This document shows positions 8,651 through 63,778 of a DNA stretch of 64,000 bases, piece by piece. A program made the position numbers and the translations under genes. Numbering within the stretch: the first letter of the stretch is position 1; each line of letters begins with the position of its first letter. The DNA is taken from positions 249,363,803-249,427,802 of the forward strand of contig OV884059.1 of NCBI GenBank assembly GCA_930367215.1, read 5' to 3'. Source of the stretch: Pollenia angustigena (lineage: Eukaryota; Arthropoda; Insecta; Diptera; Polleniidae). The notes beneath the pieces were generated by a model that was not told the DNA's origin, did not search any database, and was given only the letters and a program-made list of their open reading frames with translations.

Positions 8651-9911
8651 CACGCAGAGAAAAAATATGGTTGGACATGATTACGGCAACAACACTATGT
8701 TTAATGTAACAATATATTGTTGTCGTAACCAAATAATTGTTAATTTTATAAAGAATCAGCAATATTATAGTTACTGTAAACATATCAATGTTTATCACAA
8801 TTATAAATTGGAGTATTGTTGACCGAAAAATAATAATTTTTCTTACAACTTAATTATGAAAACTTTATAAACATATTTTATTACTCACAACCATATCATG
8901 ATATTTAATAGCCATAACATGATAACTTTCTATGCATTTATCATATTATGTTAAAGATGCAATCAAACTATTTTTACTCTAGTAATATTATGTTAGCGCC
9001 ATTTTAAAATAATTTTGAATCAGTTGTGTCGTTTATTTTATATGTGAGCGGTTAAACAATTTAAAGATAAATTCCTATAAAAAAATAAGTTTAAAGAAAT
9101 AAAAAAAATTAAAATATTAGCGGAGTTCATTCAGTATTAGTGCAAATGCAAAATATCGTAGTTTTTTTGTAAAATCCAACAACAAAACACACAGAGATTT
9201 CGTTATACTTTATAAAAGTGCTACGATATTTCTGTGGTTTTCATGGGCAACAGCGTATGTCTTAAAACAAATTTTTCAGGAAAGCTGAAAACCCATTCTA
9301 GATCAAACCATGGGCTAGGTATTGCACTTTTAAAACTTCGTCATTACGTTAAAAAATCGGAATTGATCCATCTTTTTTCAAAAAAATGTAAAGAGAATTT
9401 AAAATTAGGCAATATGGCATCAACATCTCAAAATCGGAAAAATGGACATACGCGGTTGCCCATGAAAACCACAGATTTTGCATTTGCTCTTTTGCAAGCA
9501 TTATATTGAACTCCGCTATTTGATTAACATTAAGAAAAATTGTAAAAAGCCACAAAATAAAAAATCGATGCAAAAAAATTTTAATTTATTTTGTAATTTT
9601 ATGACAGCTATGAAAGGTGCTGTATCATAATATGATTGCTTCTAAATTTATTATGATTAATATGATGGTAATATGATTATCTTCTTAGCTTATTATGATT
9701 AACATGACAAAAATTTGATTACTTCCTTACTTAGTATGATTAACAGAATATTAATATGATTAAGGGAAAAATATTATGATGTAATAGTACGAGTATATTT
9801 AGACATAATATGATTCAATAATAATCGTAATATGGTGACTACAATCATGAATCTATCATAATATGTTGCTCTTAGAATATGTTTACCCCAACCATGTTTT
9901 TTCTTTGCGTG
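8651..9911. mobile_element. MITE, CACGCAGAGAAAAAATATGG family, copy 1
   Basis: The left terminus CACGCAGAGAAAAAATATGG pairs with the reverse complement of the right terminus (CACGCAAAGAAAAAACATGG). TACATA occurs directly outside both ends and may be a 6-bp TSD. A second copy of the same structure is at 29522-30616, and a short relative at 22014-22171. The interior is rich in ATAATATGATTA-like words. It carries a nested MITE at 9119-9517. Small ORFs inside are shadows of the palindromic sequence. Confidence 0.7.
9119..9517. mobile_element. Nested MITE, AGCGGAGTTCA family
   Basis: AGCGGAGTTCA at 9119 is the exact reverse complement of TGAACTCCGCT ending at 9517. Subterminal sequence is also inverted: TTTCTGTGGTTTTCATGGGC near 9228 against GCCCATGAAAACCACAGA near 9459, so the element can fold into a long hairpin. 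Relatives occur at 10877-11033, 20851-20990 and inside 29522-30616, where the right end is missing. Confidence 0.65.
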
Positions 9912-14450: not shown

Positions 14451-14858
14451 TTAAAATAAACTAATATTTTTAAATAAGCAATTTATGATTTCCTTGTAAG
14501 GCAAATTTAGATAGTACAGTCTATCTTCTGTCATTGTTAATCTGAGCCGTATTTTTATTCGACGAAGGGTAGGAAATGACCTCCCGCTCGTGGCATTACT
14601 AACGAGCATTAAAACAAAAATTTGAAATATTTTTCTTAGATTTGGGTAGATATCTTCATCACAGTTTCTTAAAGCATCTACAACGTTATCTGATAGATTT
14701 TCAGATATTTTCCATGTTTGTTGCCAATGCAACAGTTCAGGCTCAAGTTTAGATGTTAGTAGGTGTTTATCTCTTTTATCAAATACTAGCTTAACCCGGG
14801 GCACTTCGCTACACTGCTTTAACCACTTCTTCAGTTGAGAAATATTTAATATATGCAT
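14451..14858 (-). pseudogene. hAT transposase C-terminal dimerisation domain (hATC) remnant
   Basis: About 135 residues on the minus strand contain the hATC signature: Y-P-N-L-R-K-I-F, then V-S-N-A-T-S-G-R-S-F, then L-R-R-I-K-I-R-L-R followed by M-T-E-D-R-L. In active hAT transposases this region mediates dimerisation, and the Ser-Phe plus arginine-rich stretch is its most conserved part. Here the catalytic domain upstream is separated by a repeat insertion (14851-16080), so this piece cannot be read through from the rest of the transposase. The Met of the frame lies in or next to the inserted repeat and is not a native start. Confidence 0.8.
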
Positions 14859-16080
14859 CCTATGAAAGGTTTTTCACCCCTTCCGTCCCGCTTTATTTTT
14901 ATTTTCAAAAGTGTAGTATACCATAGGAGTGACTTCTACTAACATTCTTACTATAACAGTTCTGAAGATATGCGATATTAAACATTGGCGTCCTATGGGG
15001 GGTAACATTTCTCCGCTGGCATTTTTTTGAATTTTTGGGCTCAGAATATCCTACTACCAAAAGTTCAACAAAATGCGTGCAGCGGCTCTTAATTATATTT
15101 CTATCTATGAGGGGTACTGCTCCTCCTCTGTCAACCCCGCCCATTTTTATATTGATATTTATAGATTACCATAATAGAAGCTTTAACCACGTTTGAAGAC
15201 TCTCAATTTAATAGTTCTTAAGTTGAGCGATATTTTATATATGCATCCTATGGGAGGTATTTCCACTCTTGAGCCTACCAGCTTTATTTCTATTTTCAAA
15301 AGTGTAGTATACCATTAGAGTGACTTCTGCAAATTTGGAACATTCTCACTATAACAGTTCTTAAGATATGCGATATTTAACATTGGCGTCCTATGGTGGG
15401 TAACACTTCCCCCGCTGCTATTTTATTTAAATTTTGGGGCTCAGAAGATCCTACTACCAAAAGTTCAACAAAATGCGTGCAGCGGCTTTATTAATATTTC
15501 TTTCTATGAGGGGAACTGCTCCTCCTCTGTCCACCCCGCCCATTACTACATTAAAATTTAAAGTTTGCTATAATAGTAGCTCTAACTACGTTTGAAGACT
15601 CTCCCTTTAATAGTTCTTCAGTTGAGCGATATTTAATATATGCATCCTATGAGAGGTATTCCCCCAACTGCGTCTACCCGCTTTATTATTTGTTTCAATA
15701 GTGTAGTATACCATAAGAGTGACTTCTACAAAGTTTGAACATTCTCACTATAACAGTTCTTAAGATATGCGATATTAAACATTGGCGTCCTATGGGGGAA
15801 ACCACTTCCCCCGCTGCTACTTTATTTCAATTTTGGGGCTCAGAAGATTTTACTACCAAAAGTTCAACAAAATGCGTCAAGCGGCTCTTAAGATATGCGA
15901 TATTTAATATTGGCATCCAATGGGGGTACCAATTCCCCTGCCCCTATCGAAAAAATAAGTAGCCTATTTTATTTTTAGCTCACGTGATGCTACTGAAAAA
16001 ATTTCAGGAAAATCGGTTCAGTAGTTTAGGAGTCAAACAAACAAACAAACAATCAAACAAACAAACATACAAACATTTAC
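14851..16080. repeat. Three ~390-bp tandem repeat units with (CAAA)n tail, inserted in the hAT
   Basis: Each unit starts near ATATGCATCCTATG (14851, 15239, 15638). Each contains AGTGTAGTATACCAT, GATATGCGATATT, CATTGGCGTCCTATGG and AAAAGTTCAACAAAATGCG in the same order. The third unit is followed by GAAAATCGGTTCAGTAGTTT and a tail of CAAA repeats at about 16031-16076. A microsatellite tail suggests a retroposed origin, but no reverse transcriptase is present. Confidence 0.8.
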
Positions 16081-24849: not shown

Positions 24850-25590
24850 TAAGTAAAAAAATTATTCTTGGGACAAATATATTGTTCGAAACCCATGGTT
24901 GAATCCAGCTTAAAAAATTATTATAGGTTAACGTCTTTAACGATCTTATTCTAATTCTTGTGCAGAAATAAAAGTGAATGTTTTCTTTAAATAACACTAT
25001 GTGACAGTTTTTTGACCAAACGTATTTAACACCTAATCTTTATGTAAAATTGCCCTCTGAATCCGAATATTTCAAGTAACCTTAATCTTAAAAAATATTG
25101 GATGGATTATGTATTTCTTTTTTGTAATGAAAGATAATACAAATACTAAAATAACAATGGATTGCTAGTAGTGCTGGGAAACTATCGATAGACTATCGAT
25201 ATTATCGATAGTCTGATAATATCGATAGGAAAAATATAAATATCGATATTTTTAGTATTTAAAATACAGATATGAAGACATCTAACGGCAGTTATACACA
25301 CACAGTTTTTTGTCGCAAATTTTTACTTGCTATTATTAATTCTCGCTGAATTACACTCAGGTCTCGCCTTATGCGGATTTTTTATATGCGGATTCAAATT
25401 TATGCGGTTTTTAAAGTTTTAGATGTCTTTTAAGCTTTTTTGACGTTTTTAAATTACCCCAAGTTTGCATCACGACATACTCGTTATAGTTTATTTTATT
25501 TTGTGTTTTTTATATGCATAGCCGATACGTTTGTAATTATGAGTGCTTTAAAACTAATGAAAAATACATAGTATTAGTTTTGCAACGACG

Positions 25591-25629
25591 CACAGTAGCG
25601 CCCGTAGAGCAAACGAGGTTGCAAAAATC
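25591..25629 (+). promoter_or_regulatory. Left Transib terminal repeat, RSS-like (heptamer-23-nonamer)
   Basis: Heptamer CACAGTA (25591-25597), 23-bp spacer (25598-25620), nonamer-like GCAAAAATC (25621-25629). The nonamer matches 7 of 9 positions of the V(D)J consensus ACAAAAACC, and the heptamer 6 of 7 of CACAGTG. It is the presumed transposase binding and cleavage site. Confidence 0.85.
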
Positions 25630-26230
25630 AAAATTTTCATGAGCACCGACGAAGTTTTGAATAAACTCATGTTATAGGAAACTTTTCAACGATTTCAAAT
25701 CTGCCACTCTTAATAATATCACATTTTTAGTTTAGAAGATATAACCGTTCAAAGTTGACCGACTTTCGGTTTTCAAAAAAACACACAATTTTTAGTAAAT
25801 TTGTTGCGATTTCAGGTGTAATATCACGAAAAATAGGTAACGAATCGCCTTATTTTTTGTTTGTATTGATTGATGCATTTATTAAATGTGTAATGATAAA
25901 AAAAAAATGAACTGTTTGCTTTGTGTTTCTCCTGGTAAATCACTATTTAAAAACTATCCGTTTTTTCACTATTTTTCAACTTTGACGGAAAATAACAAAA
26001 ATCTATATTTTTCTATATTTGCCATATTTGCAAAATCTGTTCTTTGATTATTTCTTTACATAATTCAAAAATTTTATCTGCCCGTACGTGCCCGTTTGGC
26101 TTCTAGAGGTAAAAAAGGTTAAAAAGACATGGTTGCAGAAATTGTATGACAGTAGTTTGATCTAAAATCTAAAAAAACTACTCATTGAAATTAGCAGGTA
26201 CGTACCTCACTTAAACAATACTTTGGCGTA

Positions 26231-26528
26231 CAAATGGTCAAGAACAATATTGACTACAGGTAGGCACAAATCTTATTTGGACACGTGCATAATATCAAAA
26301 TTGCATTATTCAGCCTAATTCCATTTGTATGCAGGGAACAGGTAAATTTTTCGGCATGGTAGCATAAGCCTATATATTGCAAATGGTCAAGAACAATATT
26401 GACTACAGGTAGGCACAAATCTTATTTGGACACGTGCATAATATAAAAATGCATTATTCAGCCTAAATCCATATGTATGTAGGGAACAGGTACATTTTTC
26501 GGCATGGTAGCATAAGCCTATATATTGC
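26231..26528 (+). repeat. 149-bp tandem duplication upstream of the Transib gene
   Basis: Two copies begin CAAATGGTCAAGAACAATAT, at 26231 and 26380, and end CATAAGCCTATATATTGC. They differ at a handful of positions. They lie within the Transib, about 90 bp before its start codon, and probably belong to the promoter or 5' leader. Confidence 0.9.
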
Positions 26529-26615
26529 AAAATAAGCATAATGCCTGGATTAGTCTACGACTGAAAGTTGGCGCAACAATTACTGAAACCATTAAACAAT
26601 TTAAGTACTGAAAAC

Positions 26616-28619
26616 ATGGCGTTGAACAATTTTAAATTATTTGAACTGTTTAGAAAGTCAACCACACCAAATTTTTTCACGGAAGCTGCTTTAGAAGAAC
26701 TTGATAGCTTATACGGAAATATTGAGAGAAGCGAAATTATAAAAAATAATTTTTATCTGATATATGCAAATATTAAGGCAAAATGGGTGAAATCTAATCG
26801 AACCATTCAGAACTTCAACTCCAAATACGAGGACTGGCTTAATGAAGATACCATCCTGGATATATTGGCAGTAGATAAACCCACCACATCAACCAGAGGA
26901 GCAAAAGGAAGGCCAAAAAAAAGTATTGAGGAGTGTTCAATTTTCACAAGAAAGAGGAAACTTGCCGATGCCACCAATGACTTGACCACGAAGCAATTAT
27001 CGGAAGCGCTGTCTATTAAATTTACAAAGGATAGTGAAAGAGTTAGGTCGCACATAACCAAATCTGTTGCTGATGCAAGCCCACTGCGACTAAAAAGGAT
27101 TAAGGAAAGCATTCCCACGCCCACAAACGCACACATTAAAAAGTATGGTTCCGAAGAAGCCTTGGCCTTGTTTATGGACTTAGAACTTTCCAAAGAGAAA
27201 TATGAGAAACTACGGGCATCTTTAACGCGACACGGCGCTGACGTTTTACCCGGATACAAGCATATTACGCAAGCCAAAATAAATTCACGACCACTGCATA
27301 CGGAATTTACGGAAGTCTCTGCGAAAGCCAATCTGCAGGATCTCATGGGCCATACAGCAAAACGGTTGTTGGAGAGTCTTCCTGAAAATGAGGTGAAAAT
27401 TCTTCCTGAGAAGTTGACATTGATCAGCAAATGGGGCTGCGATGGATCATCCGGACAAAGCGTTTATAAGCAAAGGATATCTTCCGATGACGCTACAATA
27501 TCGGACGGAAATATGTTTATGGCATCTGTTGTTCCTTTGCGGCTTAAATCGGATGTTTCCCTTCACTGGAAAAATCCACGTCCGTCATCAGTGCATTATT
27601 GCCGACCAATAATGTTTCAGTTTGCAAGGGAATCGGCAGAACTCATAAGGACCACGGTGAAGGACATTGAAGAACAAATAAGCAAGATTAAGCCTACAAA
27701 GCTGCAAATTGGAGAAGGAAAATATATTGAATGCAATTACGAGTTCCATCTGACCATGGTTGACGGAAAAGTCGTAAACGAACTGACAGGAACAACCTCA
27801 ACAATGTCATGCCCGATTTGCAAAAAGAGTCAGAAGAACTTTGGTAATTTAAACGATTCTACAAATGAGGAGAATTACGAATATGGAATGTCACCATTGC
27901 ACGCAAGGATAAGGTGTATGGAATTCTTGCTAAAACTGGCGTATACCCTACCACAAGAGGAGGAAAACTTCGATGAAAATACATCAATAAAGGATAAGGA
28001 AAAGATCAGAAAGAAGCAAATACAGGATGCTTTTTTTAAACAAGTTGGACTAAAAGTAGACTGTCCCAAGCACGGATACGGTAACTCAAACGATGGAAAC
28101 ACTTCTAGGAGATTTTTTGAAAATGATGAGGCAGTAACTAGAATCACTGGAATTGACAATCAAATCGTGAAAAGATTGGGAACGATCTTGGATGTTTTAA
28201 ACTGCAAAGAAAATGTCAATTCTACAAAATATGGAGAATATGCGTCGAAAACTGCATCTCTTTTAGCAGAAATGTATCCACAGAAGAAGTTGACCCCGAC
28301 CGTCCATAAAATATTGGCGCATGGCAAAGATATAATTGAGTACCAGTCTTTGCCAATTGGAGAGCTTTCTGAAGAAGCACAGGAGTCTCTTAACAAATTT
28401 TATAAAAAATATAGATTGCAGAACACATTCAAAGCATCAAGGGTAAGGCAAAATGAGGACCTCTTCAACATGTTGGCAGCATCTTCCGATCCACTTATAT
28501 CTTCCCTGCGGCATGTGAAGTCACGAATAGAGTTAGAAAATAATTATAGTTTAGAAATGGTTAGTCTTTTAGATATACCTTCTCTTACGAACTGTGATGA
28601 ATATTTTACAGAAAATTGA
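26616..28619 (+). CDS. Transib transposase (RAG1-like DDE recombinase)
   Basis: The 667-residue protein would excise and reinsert the element in the nucleus by cutting at the CACAGTG ends. ATG 26616 has a good context (AAAC ATG G). The frame stays open 16 codons further upstream to 26568, but without an ATG. Residues 98-102 (G-R-P-K-K) resemble the GGRPR motif of the RAG1 nonamer-binding domain. By alignment of motif order with RAG1, the catalytic triad is D276 (W-G-C-D-G-S-S-G), D383 (M-V-D-G-K-V) and E590 (E-E-A-Q-E-S-L-N-K). The structural zinc site is C399 and C402 (C-P-I-C) with H564 and H569 (H-K-I-L-A-H). All seven residues are present and no stop or frameshift interrupts the frame, so it may be functional. 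There is no RAG2-like gene, as expected for Transib. The residue matching is from memory of RAG1, not a computed alignment. Confidence 0.93.
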   Translation: MALNNFKLFELFRKSTTPNFFTEAALEELDSLYGNIERSEIIKNNFYLIYANIKAKWVKSNRTIQNFNSKYEDWLNEDTILDILAVDKPTTSTRGAKGRPKKSIEECSIFTRKRKLADATNDLTTKQLSEALSIKFTKDSERVRSHITKSVADASPLRLKRIKESIPTPTNAHIKKYGSEEALALFMDLELSKEKYEKLRASLTRHGADVLPGYKHITQAKINSRPLHTEFTEVSAKANLQDLMGHTAKRLLESLPENEVKILPEKLTLISKWGCDGSSGQSVYKQRISSDDATISDGNMFMASVVPLRLKSDVSLHWKNPRPSSVHYCRPIMFQFARESAELIRTTVKDIEEQISKIKPTKLQIGEGKYIECNYEFHLTMVDGKVVNELTGTTSTMSCPICKKSQKNFGNLNDSTNEENYEYGMSPLHARIRCMEFLLKLAYTLPQEEENFDENTSIKDKEKIRKKQIQDAFFKQVGLKVDCPKHGYGNSNDGNTSRRFFENDEAVTRITGIDNQIVKRLGTILDVLNCKENVNSTKYGEYASKTASLLAEMYPQKKLTPTVHKILAHGKDIIEYQSLPIGELSEEAQESLNKFYKKYRLQNTFKASRVRQNEDLFNMLAASSDPLISSLRHVKSRIELENNYSLEMVSLLDIPSLTNCDEYFTEN

Positions 28620-28900
28620 AAAAATAAATTTAAAAAAAAATAATTTTTTTTTTAATTTGTTGGGTAATAATTTAAAACATAAAAACCTAAAGAAAAAAAA
28701 TAAAAACAATCTAAAAATGTAAAAATAATTTTTTTTAGTTACCATAAAATTGATTTTTCTACTAATTTTAACTTTGATAACCCATAATTAGGCCCCTACA
28801 GAGCGTAGCACCCTTTCCAAACGCTCATTTCATAGGCTGAACAGTTATCTATCATATGCTGTTTAAACTGTTCAATTATCTTATTCGGTTCAAAAGATAT
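28620..28900 (+). other. Transib 3' untranslated/subterminal region
   Basis: A-rich sequence with two AATAAA-like signals (AAAAATAAATT at about 28619-28629, AAAAAATAAAAAC near 28696-28708) follows the stop. This is consistent with transcript 3'-end formation inside the element. Confidence 0.45.
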
Positions 28901-28938
28901 GATTTTTGCAACGAAAAAACTCAAATGGCGCCACTGTG
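28901..28938 (-). promoter_or_regulatory. Right Transib terminal repeat, RSS-like (heptamer-22-nonamer)
   Basis: On the minus strand: CACAGTG (28938-28932, identical to the V(D)J heptamer consensus), a 22-bp spacer, then GCAAAAATC (28909-28901). The spacer starts GCGCC, as on the left side. Confidence 0.85.
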
Positions 28939-29521
28939 CGACGGCTAATTTCGGCAAAAATATAATGAAAAATGAGGTGGAAGTTAGAAAAATTTCAATT
29001 TTAAACTCGTTCTTTCCTGTCGTTTTCGGTACAACATTGTTATAACCACATGTACGAGTGTAAAGAAGTTTGCATAACTTTTAAACTACAAGGCCCCATA
29101 ATAAAACTTTTACAATATGATAAGGACACTAAAGGCCAATTTAGATTAAAAATTAAAAAAAAAAAATTAGAACTTAGTTAGAAAAATTTTGATTTAAATT
29201 GGTTATTTCTGGCTTTGCAGATGAACAAATGTTTTCTTTATTTAAAGATCACCAAAATTTTTTTTGTTTGATTAGTTTTTATATTTGTTGATTTTTTTAT
29301 GCGATTTTGCTTTGATTTTTTAATTAAAATTTGAATTTATGCGGTTTCTCAGAACTTTGGAACGAATCATTAGTTTTTATATGAAGCAGAGTATCGTTTT
29401 ACGCGAATTCAATTTATGAGATTTTTTTTGGAACGCATCTATCGCATAAAACGAGACCTAAGTATACAGCAATGAATACAAACAACAAGAATGACAAGTG
29501 GTATGGATTGCTTAGCAGTGA

Positions 29522-30616
29522 ACGCAGAGAAAAAATATGGTTGGGCATGGTTACGGCAACAACACTATGTTTAATGTAACAATATATTGTTGTCGTACAC
29601 AAATAATTGTTATTTTTATTTAATATCAACAATATTATAGTTACTGTAAACATATCAATGTTTATCGCAATTATGAATTTGAGTATTGTTGACCGAAAAA
29701 TAATTATTTTTTTAACAACTAAATTATGATAAATTTCTAAACATATTATATTTCTCACAACCATATCATGATATTTAATAGCCATAACATGATAACTTTC
29801 TATATATTTATCATATTATGTTAAATATGCAATCAAACTATTATGTTAGCGCCATTTGTAAAATAATTTTGAAGCAGTTGTGTCGTTTTTTTTTTATTTG
29901 TGAGCGTTTAAACAATTAAAAGAAAAAATTCCATAAAAAAATAAGTTTAAAGAATTAAAATATTAGCGGAGTTCATTCAAGTATTGGTGATGTAATAGTG
30001 CAAATGCAAAATATCATAGTTTTTTTGTAAAATCCAACAACAAAACACACAGAGATTTCGTTATATTTTATAAAAGTGCTACGATATTTCTGTGGGTTTC
30101 ATGGGCAACCGTGTATGTCTTATAACAAATTTTTCAGGAAAGCCGAAAAACCATTCTAGATCAAACTATGGGCTAGGTATTGCACTTTTAAAACTTTGTC
30201 ATTACGTTAAAAAATCGGAATTGATCCATCTTTTTTCAAAAAAATTTAAAGATCGTTCAAAATTAGGCAATATGGCATCAACATCTTAAAATCGAAAAAA
30301 TGGCCACAAAATCGATGCAAAAATATTTTAATTTATTTTGTGTTTTTATGACAGCTATGAAAGGTGCTGTATCATAATATGATTGCTTCTAAATTTATTA
30401 TGATTAACATGATGATAATTTGATTACTTCTTAACTTAGTATGATTAACAGATTAATAATATGATTAAGGGAAAAATATTATGATGTAATATTACGAATA
30501 TATTTAGCCATAATATGATGCAATAATAATCTTAATATGGTGACTACAATCATAATTCTTATGATAATATGTTGCTCTTAGAATATGTTTACCACAACCA
30601 TGTTTTTTCTTTGCGT
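29522..30616. mobile_element. MITE, CACGCAGAGAAAAAATATGG family, copy 2
   Basis: It is nearly collinear with 8651-9911, with the same ends (ACGCAGAGAAAAAATATGG / CCATGTTTTTTCTTTGCGT). It includes the nested AGCGGAGTTCA element at 29966, but the right part of that nested MITE is deleted here. The shared nested insertion shows both copies descend from a copy that already held it. The ORFs at 29414-29785 and 30092-30289 are palindrome shadows. Confidence 0.75.
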
Positions 30617-30985
30617 GTGCTTTTTACTGCTAATTAAACGCCTTTAAGTCGAAATTTGTACATGTTTATATCGGGACTAAAATGTCAAATATTTTTGTGA
30701 TGTTGTAAAAAAAACTGCAAATCCAAATGCAATGGCAAGCATAGGACAAAACAATGAACGACCATTAGAGGACAAGTCCGCTAGATTGGTTACCTTTTTG
30801 GGTTAAGAATTAAGAAACATTTTTAAAGTTGCAATGGAATATCTTATAGTCCCTGTTACTTCGGTTCCTTCCGAAATTTTTTTAAAATACTGCCATCTAA
30901 AATAACGTGCGTACATATATACGTCTCTTACATTCAATAAAGTGATGAAAACAACGGGCTGTAGCCTTATAAAAAAATAATTAAT

Positions 30986-32055
30986 GATCTGGCCTAAGCA
31001 ACCAGTGAAATGCATAGGAATAGCTTATCCCATCAACAATAAATTTCAAGTGTTTTTATCAATAATAAAAACTGGGAATTAAGCACGAATAACAAAATCT
31101 TTTGAAATTAAAATTTTGTATTCCCAAAAATTGAAATTACTTTTTGATAATAAACAGGCAAGTGCACGGCCTAAAAAAACACTTAATTGACAACATCTTT
31201 TGTAAGTTGTTGTTTGTTTTTTATTTTGTTTTTCTTAACCTACTTACAACTACAATTAATGTTGAGAGAATTTCAACTAATTGTGGTGGGGAGTGTAAGA
31301 TGAGATAAACCCACTTTTTTATTGTTGATGTATTTTGTTCAAGCTTTGATATTGTTACAAGTAAAACTGTTGCTATAAGTCTTATACGTTTAACAGTTTT
31401 ATTTGGTTTAATATCTTTAGTTTGTCTAAAATCTTTATGGATGAAGTTTCCTGATGATCTGGCCTAAGCAACCAGTGAAATGCATAGGAATAGCTTATCC
31501 CATCAACAATAAATTTCAAGTGTTTTTATCAAGAATAAAAACTGGGAATTAAGCACGAATAACAAAATCTTTTGAAATTAAAATTTTGTATTCCCAAAAA
31601 TTGAAATTACTTTTTGATAATAAACAGGCGGTGCACGGCCTAAAAAACACTTAATTGACAACATCTTTTGTAAGTTGTTGTTTTTTTCATTTTGTTTTTC
31701 TTAACCTACTTACAACTACAATTAATGTTGAGAGAATTTCAACTAATTGTAGTGGGGAAATGTAAGATGAGATGAACCCACTGTTGTTTATTGTTGATGT
31801 GTTTTGTTTAAACTTTGATATTGTTACAAGTAGAACTGTTGCTATAATTCTTATACGTTTAACAGTTTTATTTGGTTTAATATCTTTAGTTTGTCTAAAA
31901 CCTTTATGGATGAAGTTTCCTGATGATCTGGCCTAAGCAACCAGTGAAATGCATAGGAATAGCTTATCCCATCAACAATAAATTTCAAGTGTTTTTATCA
32001 ATAATAAAAACTGGGAATTAAGCACGAATAACAAAATCTTTTGAAATTAAAATAA
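30986..32055. repeat. 470-bp tandem repeat, about 2.3 copies
   Basis: GATCTGGCCTAAGCAACCAG starts units at 30986, 31456 and 31925 (periods 470 and 469). The third unit is cut about 125 bp in, where the hAT subterminal sequence begins. Each unit contains AAAAACTGGGAATTAAGCAC and AGTTTGTCTAAAATC. An inverted partial copy is at about 54703-55108. Confidence 0.85.
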
Positions 32056-43793: not shown

Positions 43794-46700
43794 TTAATTA
43801 AATTCAGATATAATTAGATCCCTGTATTTTAAACAATTTCGTAAATATTTGTAAAGACGCATGTAATCCTTGCCGTTTAATAATTCATATACTTCTTCAG
43901 AACATAGAAATCTTTTACCAAAAAAGTTCAAACGGTAACTAACAAAAATAGGACATCTGCCTATCAAATGATGTGTGTTTTCCTGTTCATTACAGTTACA
44001 GAGTGTACACATATTATCATTGTTTCCACTGAATGCACGAGCGTTTAAGTTAAGAAGGCCACCTCTAGCTTTAAGTATCAAGCTAACGGCATGTGCTGAA
44101 TTACTATCACAAAAGTAAGGCTGAATATCATACTGTAATGTAGGGTACATATCATGAAATCTAGAGTCTCTGGCCCTTACAACGAATTTCTCATATTCAG
44201 TGATTCTTAAAGATTCAAGAATACGCTTGTGAAAGAATTGAATATTTGTTCTCCAAACTTCAATGTCATGATTTATACCGATTTCACTGCATAATGAATT
44301 CCAATGAGGAAGCCAAAAAGTGTTTTGTCGTAAGGTCTCATCAGCAAGCAGTCGAGGTAGTCTATTGACTGGCAGGTTTAAAACCTTTCTGACGTAACTG
44401 AAATGTAAATTTAGTGTCTCTAAAAAAAGCGAGTTAAGGCCAGTTTCAATATATAACATATAATTAGGTGTATTTTCGGGGAGGTATAAAATTTTTTTCA
44501 AAAAATAGCGCAATAATTTTTAAACTTCATCGAAGCTAAGATATCCCCAAACCTGTGCACCATAAAACATAATCGATTTGGCTGCAGAATGGAAAATTTT
44601 AAGCTTGTTAGAAAAATTTATCTTGGGGTGATGAATATAGCTTAACCAAGTGGAATTTATCGCTGTTTTAGATAAAGCAAGTTTAGATTCGAGGTGTTTT
44701 CTAAAAGATAAATTGTAAGTCAAATTGATACCAAGGTACTTGTATTCGTTTACTACATCAATAATATTGTCACCGAATTTCCAATACAGACCCTGGCTGA
44801 CCCTTGTACCACTTCTGAATACCATTATCTTTGATTTATCGAGATTAATTCTTAAACACCACTGAGTACAATAAACATACAATGAATCAATCATATTTTG
44901 CAGTACCTTTGGAGAGTCTGAAAGGAGAACAATGTCATCGGCGTATAGTAAAACTTTCACAACAATTCCAGCAACATCAATACCACCCGGAAGGTGGTCA
45001 TGAAGGTCGTTTAGGTAGAGGGAGAACAAAACTGGGCTTAGTAAGCACCCCTGTTTTACACCTTGGGTGACAGTGAAGGGGTCAGAAAGGGTGTTACCAT
45101 CCCAAACCTGGCTAGTGGTATTGTTGTACAGTTTCCGTAAAATACGTACTATTTTACTAGACAAACCCGTACTACATAACTTATAAAACGAAGCGTTTCT
45201 TGGAATTAAATCAAAGGCTGCGGAAAAATCAATAAAAAATGCGTATGTGTTCTTTTTTTGACTTAAGTTTAAATTTACAATACGGATTAAATTAAACAAA
45301 TTGTCTACAGTAGAATAATTCTTGCGAAATCCCGCTTGATACTAGTTGATGATATTATGACAGTCAATCCAGCTGTTAATACGATTAAGTAGTATGCCTG
45401 TAAAAAGTTTGTAAATAGTATCTAGAAGAGACAGTGCTCTATAGTTTGAAACAACATTAATATCTCCTTTTTTAAATAATGGGATAATAACCGAATTACG
45501 AAAAGAGTCTGGGATATCTTCCCTTAGGAAAATAACGTTAAAAAGCGATAATACTTCATTTAAAAAACATAAAGGGGAATTTTTATAGAATTCATAACTA
45601 ATTCTGTCTTGACCAGGGGCCCTATTTAATTTGGCTGCTTTAATGACTAAATCAAGTTCTCTCATCTCCAATGGGGAATCAAGAAAAGGGTCTATAATAT
45701 TGACCGAGGATAATAAAATATCACAATCAAAATCCTCTTGAGATAAAAGTGAGTTGAAATATTCACAAAAATGAGATATGCTCAAATTGTTTCCTACCTT
45801 TGGTTTACAATTTCGTAACGAATTAGCAAGCTTCCACCATTCACTACTGTTCCTAACCCCATTCAGCTTTAATATGTTATTCATTCTAAACCCTAACTTT
45901 TTCTCGTCACATAACCGTGCATATCTGGATCTACTGTCTATATAGCATCTTCGTCTGATTTCCGTATTTGCTTTACGATATTGATCAAGTTTATCCAGCA
46001 TACTCCTACGAGCATTTTCACACTGAGAATCAAACCATTTGTTCCTGGGGTCAAAGCGTGTCTTAAAACAATTGTTACCATTAGCTGTATGAATTTTGTT
46101 AGTGCATATAAAAACTTTTTCCTGCATACTCAGCGAAGAATGCAAATATTCAGAGTTAGCAAGTCCGGTCAGGGAGTCAGTATACCTCACCAGATTTCTG
46201 GGTAACCATGTAAGCTTTCGGGGAAGTGACAGTTCTTTCGTAAGGGGATTCTTAGAACACAGTGAAACTGTACATGGCATGTGGTCAGAAAAAGGTTTAC
46301 TAGGGATATGGAAGTCAAATAGCAATTTCAAAACATCCAGTGAACAAATACAATAATCAATTATTGAACTTCCCATAACCCCACAAAAAGTATATTCTCC
46401 TTTAACATCACCTGCCATCCGGCCATTAACAATAATACCACCCACATTCTACACAAGCGCCAACAATTTCTTCCCTTTACTATCTAAAATTGTATCCTTG
46501 GATATACGACACTGGGAGATCAAAGGCGTATCAATCAACATGGTCCCATCAAGAATTTGAGCATCAGACACCCTAGCGTTCAGATCGCCAACAATACAGA
46601 ATGATGAGCCATTAAAACTGTATATAAAATCTTCAAATTTATCAAAGTCTCTAGACCAGCTAGTGCAATTAATATATCTTGGGATGAAGTGGAAACAAAC

Positions 46701-46967
46701 ATCATCAAATTTAGCAGATAGAGTAACACCATTGGGAAACTCACAAAATTTTAAAAAGTATTTCTTTTGTATGGTTTTTTTTAAAACCATACAGACCACC
46801 GCCAATGGCGCGACCCGATGAGTGGTTTTTAGTGGCGTCCACCCAGTAAAGAACATAATTTTTGAAAAAACTTGAAAAATGTATTCTGTTATCAGCAAGA
46901 ACATGCGTCTCGAAAAGAAAAAAAATATCAAATTTGTTAATATATGTAAAGAAATTTCATTCAACAT
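43794..46967 (-). pseudogene. LINE endonuclease-reverse transcriptase (ORF2 region), broken
   Basis: Minus strand. The endonuclease has G-D-L-N-A-R at about 46572-46589 and later S-D-H-M, motifs of APE endonucleases. The RT follows with Q-A-G-F-R-K-N-Y-S-T, F-I-D-F-S-A-A-F-D, G-V-K-Q-G-C-L-L-S-P and Y-A-D-D (about 44934-44945). The C-terminus has C-T-L-C...H-H...C, a zinc-binding motif shared by several LINE clades. One reading frame runs from about 46770 to 43794 but is cut by TAG at 46449-46451, TAG at 45342-45344 and TAA at 44520-44522. Upstream of about 46770 the N-terminal endonuclease (F-D-I-F-F-L-F-E-T-H) lies in another frame, so a frameshift occurred near an A/T run at 46770-46790. 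Confidence 0.85.
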
Positions 46968-47183
46968 TTTTCATTTTTTCGAATTTATTCTATGAGCTAA
47001 ATTTCAGTTATGTATTTTATAAAGCTTTTTTGTAATAGTTCTATTCCTACAATTTTTTATTTATTGTTTTTATAAAATACATAACTGAAATTTAGCTCAT
47101 AGAATAAATTCGAAAAAATGAAAAATGTTGAATATAATATAAAGTTACCTTCGGAAGGAAATAATTCCCAGTTTCTATTTGTA
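46958..47183. mobile_element. Palindromic insertion inside the LINE, 14-bp TSD
   Basis: Arms of about 61 bp (46961-47023 and 47072-47132), including TTCTATGAGCTAAATTTCAG and its inverse, face each other around a ~45-bp core. A one-sided tail matches 12349-12516. TGTAAAGAAATTTC occurs on both sides (46944-46957, 47184-47197), consistent with a 14-bp TSD in the endonuclease coding sequence. Confidence 0.6.
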
Positions 47184-47195
47184 AAGAAATTTCCA

Positions 47196-48217
47196 AATTT
47201 AAGTTTACTATTTAGGTTTGCAACATTATACGATACCAATCGACACACTTCTGATTGCTTGTTGATGGTTGTTGAACTTGTAGCAGCAGCGATAGGGACA
47301 GCGGCAGCAGTTGCAGGCACAACATTTGAAGTAGCAGCGGTTGGCACAGAGTTGATATTTTGCGGTTTTTTTGCATCAATGTTGCATACGAAATTAGCTT
47401 TAGACATCAAATCGCGTAAAAAGTCAGCATCTGCGTTATTATTTGCAATGATCTTTTCATCTGCATAATAAAAAGGTTTGTCATCTATAAAGATGCGTAG
47501 GTCACCATATCGGACTTTCAAATGTTTGTTTATATTTTTTGCGTTATTACCAATCTGTCTTAAGTAATATCTTTTGTTGCGTACATCAGCTGTGTAATCT
47601 TTGTCAATGAAGATATGTGTACCAGCAAGAAAACGTCTACCAGCAATAATTGCATTTACTTCCATGGCAGAATTGAGCGTTAGCAAAAAAGATTTGCCCC
47701 CAGCAATTTTGTGGGCCTCAGTGACATTCACGTTAGCTTTAAGTGTGGTCTTGCACAATTTGTTGAATTCATCAAGAGCCTTAGGCACAGTTTCGCTTAC
47801 GAGGCCATTTACAACAATATTGTTTCGCCTGCTTGCCTTATCCACTTGTTCCAGTCTGTTTTTCATTATTTGCAGTTCATTCTGTAAGCGGGTGTTATCA
47901 CTACGTAGTTGCTGTATCTCTGTAGAAATGTAAGCTAAATCATCCTTCTTTACTACACTTTCCAGCTTTGCGTCCAGCGCATTGTTAAGTTTTTGGTCAA
48001 AAACAGACCAAGAAAAACAATCAGCAGCAGAAGGCGGCACTACGGATGGAATAGCAATGTCACTTCGGCCAGCCACAGAGACATTACTACTGGCGGCAGG
48101 ATTAGCTGGATCCACGGAAGTTGTCACCATCATGTTGATTGCAGTATGTTTCTTTGATATATTGTCCGAAGAAATATCAGGCGACGTCTGCTGCAAATTT
48201 CTTTTTTGTGCATTCAT
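47196..48217 (-). pseudogene. LINE ORF1 protein joined in frame to the endonuclease start
   Basis: ATG at 48217 (minus) opens about 340 codons. A Ser/Pro/Ala-rich N-terminus is followed by a coiled coil (about residues 80-130, heptad-like Leu/Ile with Q-Q-L-R-S-D-N-T-R-L-Q). An RRM-like domain then begins N-N-I-V-V-N-G-L and contains E-A-H-K-I-A-G-G-K and R-R-F-L-A-G-T-H-I-F-I, the organisation of RNA-binding ORF1 proteins. An Ala/Thr-rich linker leads, with no stop, into R-L-V-S-Y-N-V-A-N-L-N, the first motif of the APE endonuclease. The palindromic insertion then ends the frame. Either this LINE has one fused polyprotein, or an ancestral boundary was lost. Confidence 0.75.
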
Positions 48218-54590: not shown

Positions 54591-54702
54591 AAATTACAAT
54601 TACATAACATGTAATAACTTTAAAAAAAATTTTTTTTTTATTATTTTTTTTCTATTTTTTTCTTATTTTATTTTACTTTTTTTTTATCAAAAAGTAATTT
54701 CA

Positions 54703-55108
54703 ATTTTTGGGAATACAAAATTTTAATTTCAAAAGATTTTGTTATTCGTGCTTAATTCCCAGTTTTTATTCTTGATAAAAACACTTGAAATTTATTGTTG
54801 ATGGGATAAGCTATTCCTATGCATTTCACTGGTTGCTTAGGCCAGATCATCAGGAAACTTCATCCATAAAGATTTTAGACAAACTAAAGATATTAAACCA
54901 AATGAAACTGTTAAACGTATAAGACTTATAGCAACAGTTTTACTTGTAACAATATCAAAGCTGGAACAAAATACATCAACAATAAAAAAGAAGAAAAAAA
55001 AAAAAAAAAAGTGGGTTTATCTCATCTTACACTCCCCACTACAATTAGTGTTTTTATCAAGAATAAAAACTGGGAATTAAGCACGAATAACAAAATCTTT
55101 TGAAATTA
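54703..55108 (-). repeat. Inverted partial copy of the 470-bp repeat of 30986-32055
   Basis: TTGGGAATACAAAATTTTAA through CTTAATTCCCAGTTTTTATT to TAGGCCAGATCATCAGGAAA is the inverse of the 30986 unit. An A run interrupts it near 54987-55010. The final part (55046-55108) is a short direct copy (GAATAAAAACTGGGAATTAA) facing the first, so the block carries its own inverted repeat. Confidence 0.75.
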
Positions 55109-55194
55109 ATATTTTACTTTATTTTACATTTTTTCTGTTTTTTCTTATTTTATTTTACATTGTTTTATTTTTTATTTTTTTTCTGTCTCTGGTG

Positions 55195-58548: not shown

Positions 58549-58799
58549 TGTAACGACCACATACACTCATGCCTTTGCGTATACTTGTTTTTCATTTATG
58601 ATTCTCATTTAGTTTATTTCTAAATATGTATGAATGGACAAGGTTTGGTTACAATCGGCGCGATTCACACAAGACAAGAACCTGCCAAACAAGTCTCGGA
58701 AATTATTATAATTGAAGAGCCGACTGATTTCACGAAAGTGAACTCGGTTGAACATTTTTGGACGATACCTAGCCTTCGGGTTAAGTATCGAATAAATTT

Positions 58800-59227
58800 C
58801 ACAGCGGCTTCGGCTGACTGTTCTCACAGCGGCTTCGGCTGACTGTTCTCACAGCGACTCCGGTTGACTGTTCTCACAGCGGCTTCGGCTGACTGTTCTC
58901 ACAGCGACTCCGGTTGACTGTTCTCACAGCGGCTTCGGCTGACTGTTCTCACAGCGGCTTTGGCTGACTGTTCTCACAGCGGCTTCGGCTGACTGTTCTC
59001 ACAGCGGCTTCGGCTGACTGTTCTCACAGCGACTCCGGTTGACTGTTCTCACAGCGGCTTCGGCTGACTGTTCTCACAGCGGCTGCGGCTGACTGTTCTC
59101 ACAGCGGCTCCGGCTGACTGTTCTCACAGCGGCTTCGGCTGACTGTTCTCACAGCGGCTTCGGCTGACTGTTCTCACAGCGACTCCGGTTGACTGTTCTC
59201 ACAGCGGCTTCTGCTGACTGTTCCCAC
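58800..59227 (+). repeat. 25-bp tandem array in U3 of the LTR (~17 copies)
   Basis: The unit is CACAGCGGCTTCGGCTGACT plus GTTCT. Two main variants alternate irregularly: GCGGCTTCGGCTGA and GCGACTCCGGTTGA. It is GC-rich, in strong contrast to its surroundings. Its place just upstream of the TATA box suggests repeated enhancer-like sites. Confidence 0.95.
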
Positions 59228-59272
59228 ATATTGTACTAGCGAAGTAGAAAATAGTTTGTAATATAATTAAGG

Positions 59273-59728: not shown

Positions 59729-62700
59729 ATGGCGCCCGAGCAGGGACCCGATTCCAAATCGAAATGCGGGAAAAACGAAGCCGCCGCCAACGAGGAGGGA
59801 TCGGTCCAACATCACGAGAGTAACAAACACGGTAACCCATCCACGAGCCAAACCTTACATCAGGATTCGGTTGGTTGGATATACCTACTGCGTAAGGATC
59901 AGTTGATAGAACAATGTCAAAGTGTCGGTATTACCACGACTGGCTGCACGGTCGAACACCTACGAAAACAGTTGTCCGAACACCTTCGTGCAAAACGTCT
60001 TAGATCTTCTAGCGAAAATCTACTTCGCGAGTTAGAAAAGGAAATTCTAACTGCCGAAAAATGCGTCGTTGGCGAATCAAATGTAAGTCTACCAGTGCCA
60101 CATATCCCATCTAGCCACGGTCTTTCGGAAACCGAAATAATGAGCACCATTCAACGATGGAATCTCACCTATTCGGGAGAAACTGATCCAATGGAATTTC
60201 TGGAGCGGTATGAAGAGTTGGCTGAGAGCTACCATATACCGTTTGATCGTTTACTACCGTCTATGCTAGGCGTTCTTAGTGGCAATGCCTTAAAGTGGTA
60301 CAGAGTCAAACGAGGAACCATCGGCACCTGGGACACTTTTAGACAAGAAATCGAGAGATTCTTCCTACCCAACCGGTACCTTTCACATCTCGAGCAGAAC
60401 TTCTACAATCGCCGACAGAATGGTCGGGAACGAGCCAAAGATTATATTCTGACGATGCTTACACTATCCCGACAACATCCACAACTTCGAAAATTGAGCC
60501 ATCTGGATAGAATCTACGATGGCCTTCGAACCGAGTATAGACACTATGTACGCCGTAATGACTTCGCAGACTTAGATGAGTTAATCGCTCTTACTGATGA
60601 ATTTGAGGCTCTGAAGCGTGAAGAGCGACCACAGGCGTCACACATGATGGTAGAAGCATGCTACAATCGTTCAACAAGGTGTTGGCGGTGCAAGGGGATG
60701 GGTCATAAGAGAATGAATTGCTCGCGGCCATACCGATTGTTCTGTTCGCACTGCGGTCAGGACGGGGTCCTTTCGCGACAGTGCCGATGTCGTCATTTTC
60801 TTCCAGCTGCCACCGAGTACACAGTGCCGAGGGGTGATGGCCGCTATTATATATTCGTAGAAATATATGGGCATAGAACTAGGGCTTTAATCGATACAGG
60901 GGCATCACGTACGTACATAGGAGAACAGCTGAAGCAGCATTTACTGGGTATGAAGATCTCACCAATTAGCACACAGGGTATGGTACAAATGGCGGATCAG
61001 TCGTTAGCAACCTACTTAGACGTATTCCCGATTGAGATTATTTACAAACAGAGCCGAGTACAATTACAGACCTCTGTCATATCAAGCCTGGCAGAGCCGA
61101 TGATACTCGGAATTGATTTTCTGAGCGCAGTGAAGATGGAAATCAAGCTCAATGGCGAAGTTCTCACCAGATCGAATTCAGAGGGAGAAGCCGAGTACCT
61201 TCACTCCGTAGTAGATAGGGACTTTTTATCCTCTGGGGAAAATACCAAATTATCTACCATTATAGAGATTCATAAGCAAAGATTTAGTACGATAAGAGGG
61301 TTATGTAGGAGTGCAGAACACGAGATGGCAGTTATTAACGAAGAAGTAGATAAGCTGTTGGCCGATGATCGTATTGAGCCCTCACGAAGTCCCTACAGCT
61401 CTCCAATAGTTCTCGCACGGAAAAAGCAAGGAGGATGGAGGATGTGTATTGACTACCGACTACTTAATGCCGCTACAGAACCCGACGCATACCCTCTGCC
61501 ACAAATCAACGCGATCTTGGACCAACTGCGCGAAGCTCGGTTCATTTCGTCCCTAGACCTTAAGAACGGATACTGGCAAATACCCCTTACAGTGGCCTCT
61601 AGACCTTACACAGCTTTCACCGTCCCGGGGAGAGGGTTATTCCAATGGAAAGTTATGCCATTTGGGTTGCACTCGGCCCCCGCAACATTCCAGCGTGCAT
61701 TAGACTCTATCATCGGATCCGATTTGTATCCCCTGGTTTTCGTCTACCTTGACGACATAATCGTGCTTAGTCGTACGTTTGAGGAACATTTGAACACGCT
61801 AGAGACCGTGTTCACCCGCCTACAGAATGCCCAGATGTCGGTAAATTTCGATAAGTGTGAGTTTGTTCGCCAAAGTTTACGCTATCTCGGACATGTGGTC
61901 ACTTCGGAGGGTATTCGCACCGACCCCGAAAAAGTGAGAGCCATTAATGAGCTCCCAGCACCAACAAATTTAAAGGAGCTACGTAGAGTCCTTGGTGTAG
62001 CTTCGTGGTACCGCCGGTTTGTCCCGAACTTCTCCCAACTAGTTTCCCCGTTAAATCGTTTGTTGAAGAAACAGGTGAAGTGGCAATGGGGAACGGAGCA
62101 GGATGAAGCCTTTCGTAACATAAAACAAATGCTAACGAACGCACCTGTACTAGGCTGCCCGAAATTCGAACACCCGTTCTTCCTGCAAACCGATGCCAGC
62201 GCGGAAGGCCTCGGTGTTGTCCTTTTCCAACGCCCGTCTGGTACAGAGTCCGTTATTGCTTATGCAAGCCGCACTTTGACTGAAATTGAGAGGAAATATT
62301 CCACCACAGAACAAGAATGTCTGGCAATTTTATATGGGATAAGAAAAATGAGGCCCTACCTGGAGGGCTACCATTTTACTGTCATTACGGACCACCACTC
62401 GCTCAAGTGGTTACATTCGTTGCAGAATCCCTCGGGACGATTGGCCCGATGGGCCCTGGAACTCCAACAATATGATTTCGCAATAGAATATAGAAAGGGA
62501 AGCTTAAATGTCGTTGCCGATGCACTATCCCGAGCTCCACTCCCAAAAACCGACACAAATATCGTCATGACAATTTCCGAGGTGGATTGGTACACTCGCA
62601 TAATGGAAGGTGTAGCGAAGAATGCCAAGAGGTACCCGGATTTCCAGGTCATTCAAAACCGGCTCTTTAAACATATACCTCGCAAGTCAGCTTTGGATGT

Positions 62701-63778
62701 CAAACCAGAGTGGAAGCTATGCGTGCCAAACACTGATAGGCCGCGCGTCTTGAGGGAGAACCACGACTCACCAGATGCTGGGCACTTCGGTATATATAAG
62801 ACGGTGAAACGAATTAAGGAAAAATATTACTGGCCAGGGTTATATCGTGATGTCGTAAACTATGTACGATCTTGCGAGCTGTGTGCCCGCTATAAACCCG
62901 AGCAAAGGAAGCCAGCCGGCCTTATGAGTACGATGCAATGTGCCAAGCCATGGGAAATCGTGGCCGCCGATTTCGTTGGCCCCTTACCGCGTTCAACGAA
63001 CGGTTACACCGCCCTCCTCGTGCTCATCGATGTTTTTAGCAAGTGGGTAGAACTTATCCCGACCAGACAGGCGACCGCTAAGGACGTAGTGAAAGCTCTT
63101 CGTGAACGTATTATCTTTCGTTTCGGCTGCCCTAAAATCTTTCTGTCCGACAACGGTGTTCAATTTATGAGTCGGGTCGTCCAGGACCTACTTAGCAAGT
63201 CCGGTATAGAACATCGTACGACAGCTCCATACTCCCCCCACGAGAATCCGACAGAGAGAATGAACCGCACTGTTAAAACGATGATTGCGCAGCAAACGGG
63301 TTCGGACCATCGCCATTGGGACCAACATATACCAGAGATCGCCTTCGCCGTTAACACAGCAACTTGTGAGACCTCCCGTCTAACGCCGGCAGAAATCATA
63401 TACGGGACTAACCCAAAAAGCCCAAACCAACTTAGGGAGCAATATACCTGTCCTTCAGAAACTTCAAGAAAAAGAAATATTCAAGAATGCTGGAGATATA
63501 TCGAAAACCGCCGGAAAGAGAGTTCGGCACAGCAAGCCAAGTATTATAACCTAAGAAGGCGACCATGGAAACCAACGATTGGGGAAAAAGTTTGGAAAAG
63601 AGAACATCACATATCTTCCGCAGCGGACAAATTCACACAAAAATTAGCAGAAAAATTTTGTGGCCCGTTTGAAGTCATCCGCTCGACCGCAACAAATATT
63701 TACGAACTACAGGACGACGCGAATCGCAAAATAAGAGCCAATGTAAAAGATTTAAAGCCCTACGTAGAGAGAGTATAA
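59729..63778 (+). CDS. Ty3/Gypsy Gag-Pol polyprotein, uninterrupted
   Basis: One 1349-codon frame encodes a fused Gag-Pol. A Gag capsid-like region covers about 140-300. A complete CCHC knuckle (C318, C321, H326, C331) is followed by a second in which Val347 replaces the His (C339, C342, C352). The protease has D-T-G-A at 389-392. RT spans about 540-720, with D610 and Y-L-D-D at 673-676. RNase H has D822, E863, D888 and D931. The integrase has H1012, H1019, C1049 and C1052, then D1081, D1141 and E1176. A GPY/F-like motif starts at 1312, and there is no chromodomain. The lack of any stop suggests a recent insertion. The ATG overlaps the primer-binding site and no other Met precedes residue 138. 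Long LTRs and a Lys-type primer site suggest the Osvaldo group, from memory. An env gene, if any, would lie beyond the window. Confidence 0.95.
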   Translation: MAPEQGPDSKSKCGKNEAAANEEGSVQHHESNKHGNPSTSQTLHQDSVGWIYLLRKDQLIEQCQSVGITTTGCTVEHLRKQLSEHLRAKRLRSSSENLLRELEKEILTAEKCVVGESNVSLPVPHIPSSHGLSETEIMSTIQRWNLTYSGETDPMEFLERYEELAESYHIPFDRLLPSMLGVLSGNALKWYRVKRGTIGTWDTFRQEIERFFLPNRYLSHLEQNFYNRRQNGRERAKDYILTMLTLSRQHPQLRKLSHLDRIYDGLRTEYRHYVRRNDFADLDELIALTDEFEALKREERPQASHMMVEACYNRSTRCWRCKGMGHKRMNCSRPYRLFCSHCGQDGVLSRQCRCRHFLPAATEYTVPRGDGRYYIFVEIYGHRTRALIDTGASRTYIGEQLKQHLLGMKISPISTQGMVQMADQSLATYLDVFPIEIIYKQSRVQLQTSVISSLAEPMILGIDFLSAVKMEIKLNGEVLTRSNSEGEAEYLHSVVDRDFLSSGENTKLSTIIEIHKQRFSTIRGLCRSAEHEMAVINEEVDKLLADDRIEPSRSPYSSPIVLARKKQGGWRMCIDYRLLNAATEPDAYPLPQINAILDQLREARFISSLDLKNGYWQIPLTVASRPYTAFTVPGRGLFQWKVMPFGLHSAPATFQRALDSIIGSDLYPLVFVYLDDIIVLSRTFEEHLNTLETVFTRLQNAQMSVNFDKCEFVRQSLRYLGHVVTSEGIRTDPEKVRAINELPAPTNLKELRRVLGVASWYRRFVPNFSQLVSPLNRLLKKQVKWQWGTEQDEAFRNIKQMLTNAPVLGCPKFEHPFFLQTDASAEGLGVVLFQRPSGTESVIAYASRTLTEIERKYSTTEQECLAILYGIRKMRPYLEGYHFTVITDHHSLKWLHSLQNPSGRLARWALELQQYDFAIEYRKGSLNVVADALSRAPLPKTDTNIVMTISEVDWYTRIMEGVAKNAKRYPDFQVIQNRLFKHIPRKSALDVKPEWKLCVPNTDRPRVLRENHDSPDAGHFGIYKTVKRIKEKYYWPGLYRDVVNYVRSCELCARYKPEQRKPAGLMSTMQCAKPWEIVAADFVGPLPRSTNGYTALLVLIDVFSKWVELIPTRQATAKDVVKALRERIIFRFGCPKIFLSDNGVQFMSRVVQDLLSKSGIEHRTTAPYSPHENPTERMNRTVKTMIAQQTGSDHRHWDQHIPEIAFAVNTATCETSRLTPAEIIYGTNPKSPNQLREQYTCPSETSRKRNIQECWRYIENRRKESSAQQAKYYNLRRRPWKPTIGEKVWKREHHISSAADKFTQKLAEKFCGPFEVIRSTATNIYELQDDANRKIRANVKDLKPYVERV
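59730..59747 (+). promoter_or_regulatory. Primer-binding site, tRNA-Lys type
   Basis: TGGCGCCCGAGCAGGGAC starts two bases after the LTR. It differs at one position from the site complementary to the 3' end of tRNA-Lys(UUU). It overlaps codons 1-7 of Gag-Pol. Confidence 0.85.

Follow-up and report, generated by a model that had tools for sequence, protein, structure and literature searches.

An apparently intact Transib transposon with near-symmetric heptamer-nonamer-like ends in Pollenia angustigena

The antibody-gene recombinase RAG1 is thought to have evolved from Transib, a group of mobile DNA elements. We analyzed a 64,000-nucleotide stretch of Pollenia angustigena contig OV884059.1 (hereafter the window) and find that it contains, at positions 25591 to 28938, an element that is almost certainly an autonomous Transib cut-and-paste transposon using a RAG-type mechanism; this confidence refers to group membership and type of mechanism rather than to present activity. 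The identification, which agrees with the first-pass annotation of this DNA, is carried by the match of its predicted transposase to the solved Helicoverpa zea enzyme HzTransib (E 3.2e-90), by the structure of its ends, by its target-site duplication (TSD) and by seven catalytic and zinc-binding residues, and we found no evidence against Transib membership. The features of the element, including its transposase open reading frame (ORF), are as follows:

25586..25590, no strand, left copy of the TSD CGACG, read directly from the sequence
25591..28938, plus strand, Transib element of 3,348 bp, defined by its ends, TSD, ORF and HzTransib match
25591..25629, plus strand, left terminal signal: heptamer CACAGTA, 23-bp spacer, nonamer-like GCAAAAATC
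26616..28619, plus strand, transposase ORF: ATG start, 667 aa plus stop, no internal stop
26907..27092, plus strand, proposed nonamer-binding-like region (residues 98-159): GRPKK and helices
27144..28580, plus strand, stretch matching HzTransib and the RAG1 core (residues 177-655): D276, D383, E590, C399, C402, H564, H569
28901..28938, minus strand, right terminal signal, read inward: heptamer CACAGTG, 22-bp spacer, GCAAAAATC
28939..28943, no strand, right copy of the TSD CGACG, read directly from the sequence

Terminal signals and target-site duplication

The element is bounded by inverted signals that begin with CAC and contain an A-rich nonamer-like block, and CGACG lies at either side of it, an arrangement characteristic of the Transib superfamily with its 5-bp TSD. 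The earlier reading of CACAGTR at both ends, followed at 22-23 bp by GCAAAAATC, and of a perfect duplication is upheld, with spacers of 23 bp on the left and 22 bp on the right and the duplication at 25586-25590 and 28939-28943. The two ends also share GCGCC directly after the heptamer and GTT directly before the nonamer-like block. When both strands of the window were searched for CAC[AG][AGT]T[AG] followed after a gap of 20-26 by GCAAAAATC, the only matches were the two Transib ends, and the stricter pattern beginning with CACAGT[AG] (same gap and block) gave 0 matches when 200 random windows, equal to the real one in first-order composition, were scanned on both strands. The signals had been described as V(D)J-like, which is apt for their heptamer-spacer-nonamer-like layout but not for their spacing, as both spacers are long and there is no 12-bp signal. 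Instead of the 12/23 asymmetry of V(D)J signals the ends are near-symmetric (23 and 22), and a nonamer placed at a 12-bp spacer has 6/9 and 9/9 mismatches to the nonamer consensus at the two ends. Symmetric spacers of 20-22 bp are known in one class of Transib elements, and 12/23 spacers in a few cases (PMC8355894). By our own count, the left spacer is thus one base longer than those of the published class.

Two further observations concern the ends and the noncoding part of the element. The left flank next to the insertion (25572-25588) carries TTTTGCAACGA, which recurs within the right end, on its inner side; a likeness of equal score is reached by 44/3,767 random stretches, and the recurrence is probably due to chance. 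In the noncoding 5' part, directly upstream of the ORF, a 148-bp unit is present in two tandem copies (26231-26531, 96% matches) and may have a regulatory role.

The transposase and its relatives

As first annotated, the element contains one unbroken frame of 667 codons that begins with an ATG and has no internal stop, whereas in 500 random sequences matched to the element in length and to the window in composition, the longest stop-free stretch in any of the six frames was 166 codons. Relatives of the protein were taken from a protein search that favors near-full-length proteins, and all statements about them refer to the best 120 of its 516 matches. Two of these, P0001 (MALNN..) and P0002 (MSLKN..), begin at the position corresponding to the ATG at 26616, and this supports the choice of start codon. 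The product matches the Pfam RAG1 family (PF12940) with 36.3 bits (cut-off 25), and phmmer aligns the solved HzTransib transposase with its residues 177-655. A profile built from 22 sequences, the window transposase and 21 relatives, matches HzTransib with an E value of 1.8e-189 and 16 RAG1L or RAG1 sequences with values from 8.1e-17 to 1.3e-09.

It had been proposed that D276, D383, E590, C399, C402, H564 and H569 match functional positions of RAG1. All seven are present, and the comparison with the Transib and RAG1 cores that had been suggested in advance, by alignment and profile, places each of them where it was expected in relatives, HzTransib and RAG1, so that the DDE triad and the CCHH zinc ligands of Transib are both complete. 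The phmmer alignment pairs D276, D383 and E590 with residues 109, 208 and 419 in the PDB sequence of HzTransib, and these numbers differ by a constant offset of 17 from those of the HzTransib catalytic residues D126, D225 and E436 named in a review (PMC6941560). The profile alignment sets C399/C402 and H564/H569 against the C-x2-C and H-x4-H ligands of RAG1. Among the relatives, D276 is conserved in 120/120 of those that cover the position, D383 in 119/120, E590 in 114/116, C399 in 119/120, C402 in 120/120, and H564 and H569 in 115/116 each; all seven are retained by 113/120, and by 105/107 of those of at least 600 aa. Across these 107 longer relatives, 76 columns reach a conservation of 95% or more, and the window transposase deviates at 0 of them. 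The combination of matching ends, exact TSD and full coding capacity had been called rare, but for coding capacity this does not hold: judged from the database sequences, intact Transib coding capacity is not rare, although, given the bias of the search, 105/107 expresses how often intact coding occurs in databases and not the share of intact copies per genome.

The closest of the relatives, P0001, is a protein of 450 aa that aligns with 66% of the query at 95% identity and no longer matches the window transposase from residue 443 onward. Among the next nearest, at 60-62% identity, are P0002, P0003 and the Eurosta solidaginis sequence P0013, all of which are separate Transib sequences. P0013, which is the best named relative, aligns with 61% of the query; it stops short of H564, H569 and E590, and its counterpart of C399 is Y.

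The GRPKK motif noted in the first-pass annotation is also present, its first residue being 98, and it lies in a region (residues 98-159) that shows a weak, in-register structural match to the nonamer-binding domain of RAG1, a helical dimerization domain led by GRP. The same region scores a non-significant 3.6 bits in a profile alignment, and used alone in a sequence-only search it had no match to RAG1. We suggest that it could read the nonamer-like block. The broader proposal, that a currently mobile fly Transib uses a RAG1-type nonamer-binding domain to read near-symmetric heptamer-spacer-nonamer ends without RAG2, is tentative, and we consider it rather unlikely as it stands. If it were true, the reading of a two-part signal would be older than RAG2 and the 12/23 rule, and the element would be a ready test system.

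Mechanism, activity and alternative explanations

By analogy with HzTransib, which, like RAG, is reported to leave the flanks hairpinned and the element ends blunt (PMC6941560), nick-hairpin chemistry followed by strand transfer is predicted for the window element. A transposase dimer would bind at both ends by contacting the heptamer and probably also the A-rich nonamer-like block, nick at the CAC end and then form hairpins on the flanking DNA. The blunt element end would be inserted into a target staggered by 5 bp, leaving CGACG at either side, and the observed duplication fits such an insertion.

The copy has probably been mobile recently, and because the element is complete it may still be active. 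Two points weigh against current activity. One is P0001, which is altered at two conserved positions, H429 (invariant in the 22-sequence alignment) and E436 (nearly invariant), and has the look of a degenerate member of the same family; being a single sequence, it may itself contain errors, and the window copy has neither change. The other is that we found no second Transib copy within the window. Both points favor a complete-looking element that has already fallen silent, through host silencing or through a defect outside the conserved columns, an account that is compatible with Transib membership and that we regard as a serious contender, slightly short of an even chance. The absence of stops, the lack of deviations at the conserved columns, the exact TSD and the matching ends all speak against it.

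Two other explanations concern what the gene is. A full-length ORF with conserved residues would also be expected of a RAG1/Transib-like gene domesticated by the host and kept under selection. Domesticated transposase genes usually lose their terminal ends, whereas here both terminal signals are still intact and the TSD around them is exact; its surroundings are rich in repeats and its near relative looks decayed, and we therefore hold domestication to be very improbable. Still less credible is a RAG-like transposon of the ProtoRAG type with a RAG2-like partner, which would account for the relationship of the core to RAG1. Structural-alignment identity is 35-38% to HzTransib compared with 14-19% to RAG1 and RAG1L chains, and the transposase is the sole plus-strand ORF of at least 80 aa in the element, the two others (94 and 207 aa) being antisense and lying inside it. 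The convergent RAG1L-RAG2L gene pair of RAGL/ProtoRAG elements is thus replaced by a single gene, as in Transib, and no RAG2-like gene was found among plus-strand ORFs of this size (spliced genes and exons were not searched for). An autonomous Transib remains the preferred identification.

Genomic surroundings and comparison with known systems

Measured in 2-kb steps, the GC content of the window is 26-47% and falls below 32% in 24/32 steps; this AT-rich DNA is full of repeats. The second copy of a dispersed repeat (8652-9448 and 29522-30306, 88% identical) starts about 580 bp to the right of the Transib element. A 469-bp tandem array (30984-32053 and 54680-55115) has related copies about 23 kb away, mostly in inverse orientation, and a 399-bp tandem repeat occupies 14827-15891 (2.7 copies, 86% matches). 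Five minus-strand ORF pieces at 43794-48217, one with a reverse transcriptase domain, represent a probable retrotransposon lacking long terminal repeats; another piece is 90% identical to a relative, and the best named relative of a piece is from Stomoxys (42% identity). An inverted repeat of 70 nt is located at 46954-47023 and 47069-47138 (97% complementary). At 59729-63778 an uninterrupted gypsy-type gag-pol ORF of 1,349 aa encodes gag, protease, reverse transcriptase, RNase H and integrase, its best named relatives being from Musca domestica, Musca autumnalis, Eurosta and Rhagoletis, and upstream of it is a tandem array of 17 copies of a 25-bp unit (58799-59228). The named relatives of these two retroelements and of the transposase point to a schizophoran fly as the probable host.

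We found no published description of the window element in literature searches that were not aimed at the host species. Transib elements are widespread (PMC7204232), Transib1 is reported to have invaded Drosophila melanogaster and spread in 2013-2016 (PMC12230796), and transib1 insertions specific to single strains are described, Horezu_LaPeri having 19 of them (PMC10299278). By its published description, the Transib1 element of D. melanogaster and D. simulans resembles the window element in being a Transib from flies and in its length of 3,030 bp (PMC12230796). Since a full-length copy, a recent invasion and the spacer types are already in print, the window element is a good additional example of a well-known kind of element and not a new one.

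Vertebrate RAG1 and amphioxus RAG1L (ProtoRAG) share the core fold, the DDE triad and the CCHH zinc ligands with the window transposase, but at 17-19% identity; their signals are of the 12/23 type as opposed to 23/22, and ProtoRAG has a RAG2 partner, of which none was found among ORFs of at least 80 aa in the window element. HzTransib (PDB 6pqn, 6pqr, 6pqu, 6pqx, 6pqy and 6pr5) has the same core fold and catalytic triad, is 37% identical over 464 aligned residues, and belongs to an element of similar size (3,518 bp as compared to 3,348 bp) that likewise has a 5-bp TSD, a full-length copy with the duplication GCTCG having been published (PMC1852546). The window transposase differs in extending about 173-176 residues farther at its N terminus than the solved chain, a part that includes GRPKK, so that the element could be used to test whether nonamer reading predates RAG. 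Apart from this question it confirms existing knowledge of Transib, and, as an intact-looking element with both ends, TSD and ORF, it offers a practical candidate for a further active transposase in addition to HzTransib.
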